Assembly: GCF_018283645.1 (NCBI RefSeq)
Contig: NZ_JAGSXH010000064.1
Location: 1-35,441, forward strand
From: Actinocrinis puniceicyclus
GTDB taxonomy: Bacteria; Actinomycetota; Actinomycetes; Streptomycetales; Catenulisporaceae
DNA length: 35,441 bases
Direction: 5' to 3'
The notes under the pieces are model-generated. The model did no database searches. It saw only the letters and a list, made by a program, of their open reading frames with translations, and had not been told where the DNA came from. Both the position numbers and the translations under genes were made by a program. Positions 31,957 through 35,441 of the stretch are shown piece after piece; positions within the stretch are counted from its first letter, which is position 1; each line of letters begins with the position of its first letter.

Positions 31957-34131
31957 TCAGAGCACGCCGAAAGTCAGGGCGGCCAGGTAGCGTTGGAACC
32001 GCACCCGCGCGTACGCGTCCAGGGCCTTCTGCTCGGCGCGCAGTTCGTACTGCGCCGCCTCGACCGCGTCCCGGTACAGCGCGCAATCCCGGTCGATCGC
32101 CGCGACGGCCGTGGCGTGCGACGACCGCGTGCTCTGATCGTCGGCGGCCAGCGTGGCGCGCCGCGACTTGGTCTGAGCTCGCAGCGCCCTGTGTTGCACG
32201 TCCGCCGCGGACCTGACCGCGTGCTCGCGCGCTGCGACACCCGCCAGCCGCACCGCCGCCTCGCTGTCGAGCTGCGCCCGGATCGCGGCGGTCAGCTGCG
32301 CCGGCGCCTGACTACTCGACCGCGCCGCCAAGGTCGCGCGCCAGGCATCGAGGTGCCGGGCACGCACCTCCCCCACCATCGGAACTCTGAGCGGGCGCCC
32401 GTCGCGGTGCAGCACCCGCGCCGCGGGGGCACGGCCGAGCCGCTTCTCGATCCTGATACCGACGAAGTCGGCCGCGGTGCGCACGCCCGCCACGTCCAGT
32501 TCCGCGACGACCGCGCGGTCGATCCCGTAGATCTGCGCCGTGTCGATGCGGTGGCGGGCGAGTTCGTCGCCGCGGTGCCTGGCTTCCACCGCCTCGGTCC
32601 GGCGCGTCAGCTCAGCGGCCTTCCACTCCCGCAGACCATTGCGTTCGCCGACGAGCCGCGCCAGCTGATCGTCCCGGCGGCGGTCGATCTCGGCGTGTTC
32701 CGCGGCAGCCTCCGGGTCAATCCGGGCTCTGCGATCTGCCAGCGAGACCAGGTCCCGTTGATACGCGGCAACGCTTTCCTGCCGCGCCGCGAGCTGCCAG
32801 CGCAGCTGTGCCTGCGCCTGTTCCCGCCGAGCCCGCGCGGCGCGCGCGGCGCCGCGGCGCGCACGTCTCGCCCGTACCTGGGTGAGCCGCAGGAATCTGA
32901 TCCACAGCGCGACCCACGTCCCGGCGGCGATGGTGCCCGCGACGATCAGCGCGAGGGCAGCGGGAACCTCGACGCCCGGCACCACCGGGGCGCACGCGGT
33001 CACGCAGATAATCAGTAGACTGACGTACCAGCCGAGCCGCTCGCCCCACCCGGGCCGCTCGAAACGCACCGCGGACGGCGGCGGCCGGTGGTCGTCGAGC
33101 CAGCCGCCCGGCCCCGCCGCGGCGGCCGCGAGCGCCGGGTCCGTTCCGGGTTGCCGGCACTCTTCGCCATCGCGTGCGGCGTGCCGCACGGGCTTCAGGG
33201 GTCGCGCCTGCCGCGGCGTACGGATTCTGACCACCTGGTCGAGCGGCGCGATGCCTTGCAGCGGCTCATCCGCCACGGCCGCCAGTTCCTCCGCGGACCT
33301 GCGTATGCGGGCATTGACATCACGGAGCGCGGTCATTCCCGCCGACGCGGACGGGTCTTCCAGGTCGTGCTTCCGCAGCAGCAGAAACTCTCCGCCCGGC
33401 TTGTGCAGCCGAGACCACAGGGTGGGATCGGCGGCCAGCGCGCTGAGCGAGAGGTGGATCACGCGCGCCGAGAAACGATCGAGCCAGGGCCCGTAATCGG
33501 CGGCTTTTCGGCGCGGGTGCTGGTAGTTGGGCTGTCCGAGTTCCATCGCGGGCCGGTCCCGCAGCGCGGGCACGTACATGCCGTCGTAGTCGATGAGCTT
33601 GAGCTCGTCGCGCGCCGTCACCAGCAGATTGCCGTGCTGGAGGTCGCCGTGCGCGATCCCGGCCGCCTCCAGGCCCGCGACCAGGCGCGCGAACGCGTCG
33701 GCCAGCCGCTCGAAACCGCCGTGGTCGCCGGCACGCAGCTTGTCTTCGATCCAGGCGATCAGCTGCTTCGCCTCGATCCATTCCATGACCAGGACGGGGT
33801 ACGCTTCGCCGGCCACGAGCACGCCGCGCTCGACGTAGCGGAACTCGACCTTCCAGCGCGCCGGTACGTCGCGCAGCGCGGCACCGATCTCGCGGTACCG
33901 CTCCTGTTGGTCGGTCACGTCGCGTGTGAAGCACTTGACTGCGAGCCTGCGTCCGCCGGCCGTGTCGGCCGTGAACACGCTGGCGAAGTTGCCGGAGATG
34001 GGGCGCGGCAGGCCGAATCGGTCGGTGCGGATCACGCAGCCGGCGAGTTCGGGATCGACGAAACAGCGCCCGGTGTCCTGCAACGCGTCCACGTACGCGC
34101 CGCTGGTCGGGAAGGTCGCCATGGTCGCCAT
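31957..34131 (-). CDS. Membrane protein kinase with helix-hairpin-helix domain (YegI / TerY-P-type)
   Basis: 724-aa Ser/Thr kinase-like protein. The kinase domain (about 35-300) has a GNFASVF loop, Lys66 in LAVKCF, catalytic HGDLQHGN (Asp163, Asn168) and DYDG in place of DFG (Asp181), so it should be active. Two adjacent TM helices lie at about 367-383 and 389-413. A long basic/charged coiled coil follows (about 418-530), with helix-hairpin-helix elements near 536-562 (IYGIDRAVVAELDVAGVRTAADFVGI) and 583-598 (VPMVGEVRARHLDAW), then another coil. This matches E. coli YegI and the kinase of TerY-P triads. The ATG shares one base with the PP2C stop. Targets are unknown; nucleic-acid contact via HhH is inference. 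Confidence 0.88.
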   Translation of the reverse strand: MATMATFPTSGAYVDALQDTGRCFVDPELAGCVIRTDRFGLPRPISGNFASVFTADTAGGRRLAVKCFTRDVTDQQERYREIGAALRDVPARWKVEFRYVERGVLVAGEAYPVLVMEWIEAKQLIAWIEDKLRAGDHGGFERLADAFARLVAGLEAAGIAHGDLQHGNLLVTARDELKLIDYDGMYVPALRDRPAMELGQPNYQHPRRKAADYGPWLDRFSARVIHLSLSALAADPTLWSRLHKPGGEFLLLRKHDLEDPSASAGMTALRDVNARIRRSAEELAAVADEPLQGIAPLDQVVRIRTPRQARPLKPVRHAARDGEECRQPGTDPALAAAAAGPGGWLDDHRPPPSAVRFERPGWGERLGWYVSLLIICVTACAPVVPGVEVPAALALIVAGTIAAGTWVALWIRFLRLTQVRARRARRGAARAARARREQAQAQLRWQLAARQESVAAYQRDLVSLADRRARIDPEAAAEHAEIDRRRDDQLARLVGERNGLREWKAAELTRRTEAVEARHRGDELARHRIDTAQIYGIDRAVVAELDVAGVRTAADFVGIRIEKRLGRAPAARVLHRDGRPLRVPMVGEVRARHLDAWRATLAARSSSQAPAQLTAAIRAQLDSEAAVRLAGVAAREHAVRSAADVQHRALRAQTKSRRATLAADDQSTRSSHATAVAAIDRDCALYRDAVEAAQYELRAEQKALDAYARVRFQRYLAALTFGVL

Positions 34132-35075
34132 CAGGCCACTGGTCCCGGCCGCGCGCGCGTCACCGTCCCCGCGACTGTCCCCGCGACCGCATCCGTGCCC
34201 GCATCCGTGCCCGTGCCCGTGCCCATGCCCATGCCCATGCCCATGCCCATCTGCGGGACGCAACGCAGAACCGTGACATCGTCGTTGCGGATGCGCCGCT
34301 CGGCGCGCAGCGTGTCGAGCCATCGGGACGGATCCGGTTCGCTCATCGCCGCGTCGAGTTCCCGCCATGGCCGGCGGCCCGCCTCGAAACCGGCCAGGAA
34401 CCACTGCGCGGCGGCGTCCGTGGCCAGATAGAACACGTCGCCGGGCAGCCAGGTCCCGCGCCGGGTCACGGTGCGCTGTTCCAGCAGGTCCCGGCGCGGC
34501 TCGCGGGTCCCGGCCAGATGCGGGCCGGTGTCGAAATCCGCCGAGGAAAGCACCGGGAACGCCGCCACGAGCGCCGAGCCGCGCACCTGGAAGCAGCAGG
34601 TGTCGCCCAACGCGGCCGCCGTCCACGTGCCGCCACCGCCGTGCTCGGGAGGTTCGGGTACTGATGCCTCGGCGCTTCGGAACGAGACCCCGAGCAGTGT
34701 CGCGTAGGCGCCCTGCCCGACCTTCGCCTCCTCGTACCAGGCCAGCGGCCGCCCGGCCCGCTGCCTGCGCCGGATGTAGCGCTTCACGCGGACCGGCCAC
34801 CGCGCCGCCGCGGCGCAGATCCGCTCGGCGAACACCCCGGCGTCCAGGTCCCGCCCGGCCAGGGCGCCGACCGCCCTGGCCAGATCGGCCGCCCAGGCTC
34901 CCGCGAGCATGCTCTCGGACGCGCCGTCGGCGACGGCCACGGTGAGAGCGTGCGCCCAGGTACCGCCGTCCGGCGCATGCCATGCGTCCTCGTACTCTGC
35001 TTCACTCGACCCGGCCTTCGGCTGCCACAGCACGGTGCAGCCGAGCCGGACGGCCTCAACGCAGGTCGGTCGCAC
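34131..35075 (-). CDS. PP2C-family protein phosphatase (YegK/PphC-like)
   Basis: 314-aa metal-dependent phosphatase. Motifs in order: EYEDAW (first metal Asp), VAVADGASESMLAGAWA, GQGAYATLLGV, AALGDTCCFQV and RNDDVTVLRCV near residue 270. A low-complexity tail follows, made of alternating Met-Gly and Thr-Gly. The divergent spacing matches the PphC/YegK subgroup rather than classic PPM phosphatases. The GTG at 35075, inside the vWA gene end, is the most upstream start that leaves only plausible residues; an alternative GTG lies at 35033. It should reverse the neighbouring kinase's phosphorylation. The kinase ATG overlaps its stop, so the genes are coupled. Confidence 0.85.
   Translation of the reverse strand: MRPTCVEAVRLGCTVLWQPKAGSSEAEYEDAWHAPDGGTWAHALTVAVADGASESMLAGAWAADLARAVGALAGRDLDAGVFAERICAAAARWPVRVKRYIRRRQRAGRPLAWYEEAKVGQGAYATLLGVSFRSAEASVPEPPEHGGGGTWTAAALGDTCCFQVRGSALVAAFPVLSSADFDTGPHLAGTREPRRDLLEQRTVTRRGTWLPGDVFYLATDAAAQWFLAGFEAGRRPWRELDAAMSEPDPSRWLDTLRAERRIRNDDVTVLRCVPQMGMGMGMGMGTGTGTDAGTDAVAGTVAGTVTRARPGPVA
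34205..34250 (-). repeat. Hexanucleotide microsatellite in the PP2C tail
   Basis: Three CCGTGC units (34205-34222) are followed by four CCATGC units and a partial fifth (34223-34250). On the coding strand these give alternating Met-Gly then Thr-Gly dipeptides. Neighbouring sequence to about 34165 repeats related motifs. Because the unit is 6 bp, length changes keep the frame. Confidence 0.92.
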
Positions 35076-35441
35076 GGGTGCCGATGTCGAGGAACTGGAC
35101 GACGGAGGTGATGTCGGCGTTGAAGACGAAACCCCGGCTGCCTTCCGAGACCGCAATGCCCTGCGTCGCGGCATAGGCGTGCATGTGCGGCGGCAGCGTC
35201 GAGGACATGCCGAACAACAGGCGGGCGAAATCGTCCGGCAGGTTCGCCTCGTTCGCCGGGAACACGATCGGCGCCGCCTGGCCCGCGCTCACGTGCAGGT
35301 TGAACACGAGCACCGGGCCGTCGGCGGTGGCCAGCGACCGCAGCCGTGCCGCCGCCTCGGACGGGTCGCCGTCGGTGGACTCCCCGTCCGTCAAGTTGAG
35401 CACGATCGGCGGAAAGGACCCCGGCCGCTCCCCCACCCAGC
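35056..35441 (-). CDS. vWA-domain protein, TerY/YegL-like (5' end outside the window)
   Basis: C-terminal 127 residues visible; the frame is open to the window edge, so the N-terminal MIDAS motif (DxSxS) is not seen. The visible part begins at FPPIVLNLTDGESTDGDP, the TDG element of the metal ion-dependent adhesion site, typical of TerY/YegL. It continues with VLVFNLHVSAG, APIVFPANEANLPDDFARLLFGMSSTLPPHM and ends VVQFLDIGTRATDLR. It overlaps the PP2C start by 20 bp on the same strand. It is the scaffold partner in vWA-phosphatase-kinase triads. Confidence 0.88.
   Translation of the reverse strand, partial: WVGERPGSFPPIVLNLTDGESTDGDPSEAAARLRSLATADGPVLVFNLHVSAGQAAPIVFPANEANLPDDFARLLFGMSSTLPPHMHAYAATQGIAVSEGSRGFVFNADITSVVQFLDIGTRATDLR

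Follow-up and report, generated by a model that had tools for sequence, protein, structure and literature searches.

A TerY-P-like vWA-PP2C-kinase triad with a predicted membrane and helix-hairpin-helix kinase tail in Actinocrinis puniceicyclus

The triad and its kinase tail

We analyzed a 35,441-nt stretch of Actinocrinis puniceicyclus DNA (NZ_JAGSXH010000064.1; hereafter, the window). At its right end, three minus-strand genes follow one another in the order vWA, PP2C-type phosphatase, and Ser/Thr kinase, followed by a DUF72 gene (Table 1). By profile comparison, the triad combines head domains of the TerY-P type with a kinase tail of the YegI type. The window is a complete contig (C391) of a 6.8-Mb draft genome (G000; 430 contigs, 98.85% complete), and because this contig ends inside the vWA gene, the vWA start is absent from it. 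An earlier reading of these letters (the original prediction) had proposed a triad of overlapping genes, and all three lie at the positions it gave. The PP2C stop and kinase start overlap by one base (TGATG), and the PP2C and vWA genes overlap by 20 bp if PP2C starts at the GTG at 35075, an alternative start being the GTG at 35033.

The original prediction also proposed kinship to TerY-P, which PADLOC matches for all three proteins bear out. The vWA fragment corresponds to positions 151-277 of the 277-position TerY model, the phosphatase to positions 10-237 of the 242-position PP2C model, and the kinase head to positions 2-294 of the 562-position STK_OB model. The TerY model had no match in 14 control genomes, E. 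coli among them, and its distribution within the family is patchy, with matches in the window's own genome and in 5 of 13 relatives. In a Pfam scan of the triad, Pkinase was the sole match above the cut-off, so PP2C escapes Pfam. By sequence reading, the phosphatase contains the Asp-bearing stretches EYED, VADGASES, LGD, TDAAA, and NDD, which we take to be the PP2C metal motifs. The 3′ end of its gene (window about 34175-34250) is an in-frame hexanucleotide repeat (MGMGMGMGMGTGTGT) that encodes the C-terminus and could vary in length without a frameshift.

The prediction that the metal ion-dependent adhesion site (MIDAS) of the vWA protein would be found upstream held in part. The 3′ part in the window carries the motif TDGEST, and the motif DQSTS is present in two vWA paralogue N-termini on contigs C130 and C401 of the same genome, which are equally eligible as the missing 5′ part. 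In 8/8 aligned vWA relatives (10 tried), the third loop of the MIDAS reads G[GA]TPM; it could not be observed here, as about 70 aa of vWA between the contig ends are absent from the assembly.

The kinase was expected to keep its Lys, HGD, and Asp and to have two transmembrane (TM) helices and two helix-hairpin-helix (HhH) elements; sequence, hydropathy, and AlphaFold2 models (full kinase: 46 sequences, mean pLDDT 90.5, pTM 0.53; tail alone: 33 sequences, pLDDT 94.9) agree with this expectation. The catalytic residues are Lys66, His161-Gly162-Asp163, and Asp181 (as DYD). In the model, the kinase domain (about 8-300) is followed by a disordered or low-confidence linker (305-342), two helices presumed from model and hydropathy to be transmembrane (362-383 and 391-415), a long helix of 109 residues (417-525), an HhH/beta hairpin/HhH unit (about 530-608), and a return helix of 91 residues (615-705). 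At 1.5 Å per residue, the coiled-coil arm would be ~16 nm long. The first HhH of the window kinase is somewhat degenerate, reading IYGID compared to INGLG in relatives.

The kinase tails described for TerY-P are a zinc ribbon and an OB fold, according to the account in PMC11090510. Neither is recognized here: kinase residues 301-724 contain no CxxC, and positions 295-562 of the STK_OB model, taken as the OB fold from the model name, are unmatched. A fold search of the PDB with the tail model gave a best E of 0.11 and nothing below 0.001, and the 50 listed matches of the full kinase model were all protein kinases or kinase-containing enzymes.

Table 1. Genes of the triad and the adjoining DUF72 gene in the window
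Feature	Position	Strand	Details
TerY-like vWA gene, 3′ part	35056..35439	-	last 127 aa, 5′ part lost at contig end; PADLOC TerY E 1.6e-49
PP2C-type Ser/Thr protein phosphatase, 314 aa	34131..35075	-	PADLOC PP2C E 1.8e-18
Ser/Thr protein kinase, 724 aa	31957..34131	-	start ATG 34131, stop 31957; PADLOC STK_OB E 9.3e-69, kinase part only; Pfam Pkinase 4.8e-8
DUF72 gene, 296 aa, neighbor not component	31043..31933	-	start 23 bp beyond kinase stop; Pfam DUF72 6.1e-52

Relation to the YegL-PphC-YegI set and to TerY-P

For comparison with the E. coli set YegL-PphC-YegI, which the original prediction had named as a match, we built profiles for the kinase (21 HhH-type sequences), the vWA protein (7 relatives), and PP2C (7 relatives) (E at Z 100,000). 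The kinase tail profile matched YegI with an E of 1.2e-12, significantly over coiled coil and HhH and weakly over the TM part, whose segments are equally placed. Gene order and a homologous kinase tail are shared. In contrast, the vWA, PP2C, and kinase domains are not detectably in the same subfamilies: the vWA profile reached an E of 75 against YegL, the PP2C profile had no match to PphC, and the kinase-domain profile reached 6.7 against the YegI kinase domain. With the PADLOC library, YegL matched TerY at an E of 0.032, PphC matched nothing, and YegI did not match STK_OB. YegI moreover has VGD where the window kinase has HGD, and by alignment its arms are shorter.

The chief alternative to a defense function follows this likeness: like YegL-PphC-YegI, the triad could serve envelope or stress signaling, with a kinase that senses the state of the membrane or nucleoid and a phosphatase that resets it. 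The common gene order and tail would fit this, as would the report, as given in PMC13232886, that YegI is a membrane Ser/Thr kinase that PphC dephosphorylates. However, the head domains fall on the TerY-P side, the distribution is patchy, nuclease and caspase-helicase neighbors occur at some loci (see below), and the Yeg set itself has no assigned function. We regard this alternative as rather improbable, though one to be reckoned with.

With OB-fold TerY-P, the triad shares the gene trio, all three catalytic or metal-binding domains, and the kinase domain subfamily; the difference lies in the kinase C-terminus, which here consists of two TM helices, coiled coil, and HhH instead of an OB fold. 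Because the OB fold, a defining feature, was tested for and not found, we do not class the triad as OB-fold TerY-P, yet it very probably works like it. Stand-alone OB-fold TerY-P is described as anti-phage against T7-like phages (passages in PMC11090510 and PMC7699616, both citing Gao 2020), and TerY-P of P. aeruginosa PAO1 as protective at low and high phage doses, its tail type being unstated in the text drawn on (PMC10889362). CoCoNuT-type TerY-P likewise has vWA, PP2C, and kinase and an association with a restriction system. There, the kinase ends in a zinc ribbon (as described in PMC11090510), whereas the window kinase tail has no CxxC, and the triad adjoins CoCoNuT genes, whereas the recurrent nuclease neighbor of HhH-tailed triads is Mrr.

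The TerY-P triad is a known kind of system, and what is new is the YegI-type membrane/HhH tail and the Mrr partner. A literature search covering mostly papers outside subscription found nothing combining vWA, PP2C, kinase, and helix-hairpin-helix; TerY and helix-hairpin-helix co-occurred in one paper, in which they stand apart.

Distribution and neighbors of related triads

We compared the window with 87 other triad loci, namely the best 80 of 442 confirmed GTDB relatives and 7 from family or order relatives (L047 and L075 are probably one strain). When partners had to lie no more than 5 kb from the kinase and on its strand, vWA was beside it in 78/87, PP2C in 82/87, and both in 78/87. The HhH profile matched 61 of the 87 kinases; 60 of these 61 had both partners beside them, and a tail TM segment was predicted in 60. 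HhH-tailed kinases occur, among others, in Streptomyces, Saccharothrix, Mycobacterium gordonae, Nonomuraea, Paenibacillus, Chloroflexota, Verrucomicrobiota, and Planctomycetota. In the window's family, relative G011 has a kinase domain identical to that of Catenulispora rubra. Plasmid and viral collections yielded few matches, so the triad is rare there: at an E of 1e-20, 2 of 72,556 plasmid records matched, both in the kinase domain only, and one viral contig matched. On a kinase tree drawn from 91 rows less 3 omitted for length, the HhH label required 12 changes, 8 of them forced by supported branches, and none of 500 shuffles was as low; we do not press tail gain or loss, as rows lacking HhH are partly truncated (L101, L116) or perhaps missed by the profile. 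On an Obscuribacterales contig (L112, 8576-13426), three kinase-domain genes of the triad kinase family stand in tandem.

A constant fourth gene was considered and rejected, since all-against-all clustering of 6,014 open reading frames of ≥100 aa within 8 kb, spurious frames included, gave none besides the triad. This bears on another alternative, that the triad belongs to an actinobacterial GAP1-N2/GTPase-type conflict or multicellularity system. A 2020 survey notes that actinobacterial kinases with TM helices adjoin PP2C and stand-alone vWA genes in GAP1-N2 neighborhoods, and "HhH" is absent from its main text (PMC7159879). The shared gene types lend this alternative some weight; we nonetheless consider it quite unlikely, since the clustering gave no constant GTPase or other fourth family (no GAP1-N2 profile search was made) and HhH-tailed triads occur beyond actinobacteria too. 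One gene family stood near the triad in 9 loci, and its one scanned member (L061, 4346-8101) is a fusion of a caspase-like peptidase and an SF1 helicase; this gene adjoins the triad upstream in three Streptomyces loci.

The recurrent nuclease neighbor is Mrr (PF04471). In 5/5 triad-bearing family relatives (G004-G007 and G011), it follows the kinase immediately and in the same orientation; the open frame, its start set mechanically, begins -1 to 40 bp beyond the kinase stop. Hydrophobic stretches precede Mrr_cat in all three kinase-adjacent Mrr proteins tested. Overall, Mrr was found in the flanks of 11/63 HhH loci (window and second copy included) vs 0/26 other loci; the 11 represent about eight distinct lineages. 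The PF04471 background was 44 matches in 13 genomes of ~131 Mb, triad-bearing ones included, or ~1 per 3 Mb, so that the 1.56 Mb covered by the loci (window excluded) should contain ~0.5 vs 11 observed, with the caveat that the loci were counted with our own profile and the background with PF04471. The Streptomyces loci L061, L063, and L064 have Mrr on the strand of the triad, ~4 kb upstream of vWA and separated from it by a large gene whose scanned member (L061) is the caspase-helicase fusion; in L066 and L074, Mrr is on the opposite strand.

As DUF72 occupies in the window the position that Mrr has in family relatives, we considered it as the effector in the nuclease slot, and the original prediction had suggested it as a fourth component. 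A neighborhood survey spoke against both proposals and gave the outcome that the original prediction had itself named as refuting the link to DUF72. A DUF72 orthologue with 67-71% identity is present in 12/13 family relatives (the exception is G010, at 77% completeness), making it an inherited family gene; in the five triad-bearing relatives, it is on a different contig from the triad, and seven genomes have it without a TerY match (two of these are 81% and 90% complete). No DUF72 was found in the stretch around the triad in the seven first relatives, and among the 87 other loci, it was near the triad in one (L106, ~7 kb from the kinase), the profile having come from one sequence that may miss distant DUF72.

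A second triad (copy B) lies on contig C159 of the same genome, its kinase being 49% identical to the window kinase overall and 68% in the kinase domain. The last 127 bp of contigs C391 (window 35315-35441) and C159 are identical, as are the first 127 bp of C130 and C401, a pattern that would fit an assembly at k = 127 breaking at an exact repeat at both copies. Given these ends and a gap of ~208 bp between the vWA contig ends, measured on a relative, an identical stretch of ~460 bases is probably common to both vWA genes, its middle being absent from the assembly. Compared in blocks of 150 bases, the copies reach an identity of 0.98 at the vWA end, against 0.19 to 0.85 elsewhere (mostly 0.5 to 0.75), and gene conversion is the likely cause of the near-identical vWA ends.

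The genome's sole PF04471 gene (L158), which encodes an N-terminal hydrophobic segment, is at the end of contig C428. It is closest to the five kinase-adjacent Mrr genes (49-64% identity), followed by G027 (63% over 123 residues) and G037 (55% over 149 residues); 9/12 other family Mrr loci match, at 45% or less. The end of C428 is a CGCCCA repeat, the four-unit form of which is unique in the genome, and C159 begins with CGCCCACG, in an orientation fitting a junction with C428. Because of this kinship and the repeat at both contig ends, Mrr likely adjoins copy B.

A proposed anti-phage phospho-switch

We hypothesize that the triad would act as a stand-alone anti-phage phospho-switch gating a nuclease, rather than as a tellurium-stress system, and judge this to be slightly better than an even bet. 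The kinase would be anchored in the inner membrane with its kinase domain in the cytoplasm. Past the two TM helices, the modeled coiled-coil arm would return to the cytoplasm with tandem HhH at its tip, and this tip, the metal-binding vWA, or both would most likely detect a nucleic acid or complex related to infection. Phosphorylation of partner proteins would be governed by kinase and PP2C, and the response carried out by a partner nuclease; the candidate is an Mrr with an N-terminal hydrophobic stretch in relatives and probably at copy B. Lacking a nuclease neighbor, the window copy would have to work in trans, on the nuclease of copy B or on another target.

A more specific and rather doubtful version is a membrane-tethered restriction switch, in which the HhH tip of the membrane-fixed kinase would sample incoming DNA at the envelope and license a membrane-anchored Mrr by phosphorylation, with PP2C resetting and vWA tuning the response.

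The Ter-type stress setting of the original prediction was not supported. We found no match to TerD (PF02342) in the genome (98.85% complete), and the nearest tested relatives are stand-alone anti-phage systems. A role as a tellurium/Ter stress component, or as part of a four-gene unit with DUF72, would be suggested by the TerY name and by the closeness of DUF72 on the same strand; with no TerD match and DUF72 distributed as described above, including in seven triad-free relatives and at one of the 87 loci, it is largely refuted and very improbable.

Several observations weigh against the anti-phage hypothesis. HhH can bind protein as well as DNA. No defense gene was recognized alongside the window copy, and 52/63 HhH loci had no Mrr in the stretch examined (some of these short), so the nuclease is not a fixed part of the system; the largest other neighbor family reached 11/89 loci. 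The two kinase copies of this genome are sisters and fall outside a supported clade with the family's other triads, so the family gene order is no direct evidence of ancestry for them. The kinase domains of G004 and G007 are identical, and the five Mrr-bearing relatives amount to few lineages. The C428-C159 adjacency rests on few repeat bases, and in the literature we found no experiment on an HhH-tailed TerY-P-type triad.

The anti-phage hypothesis matters in that the triad joins TerY-P, an anti-phage switch whose mechanism is open, with YegI, an E. coli kinase of no known role. The shared tail and a recurrent Mrr partner with a plain enzymatic output offer a handle on the substrate, and a result would apply widely because the family spans mycobacteria, streptomycetes, paenibacilli, and several mostly uncultured phyla.

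Elsewhere in the window, plus-strand gas vesicle genes (27790-31021; GvpL/F twice, GvpO, Gas_vesicle, and GvpK by Pfam) converge on DUF72, and positions 27401-27793 may encode a further gas vesicle protein. A second, possibly kinase-like gene with a weak RIO1 match (8.9e-5) lies at 18973-20928.

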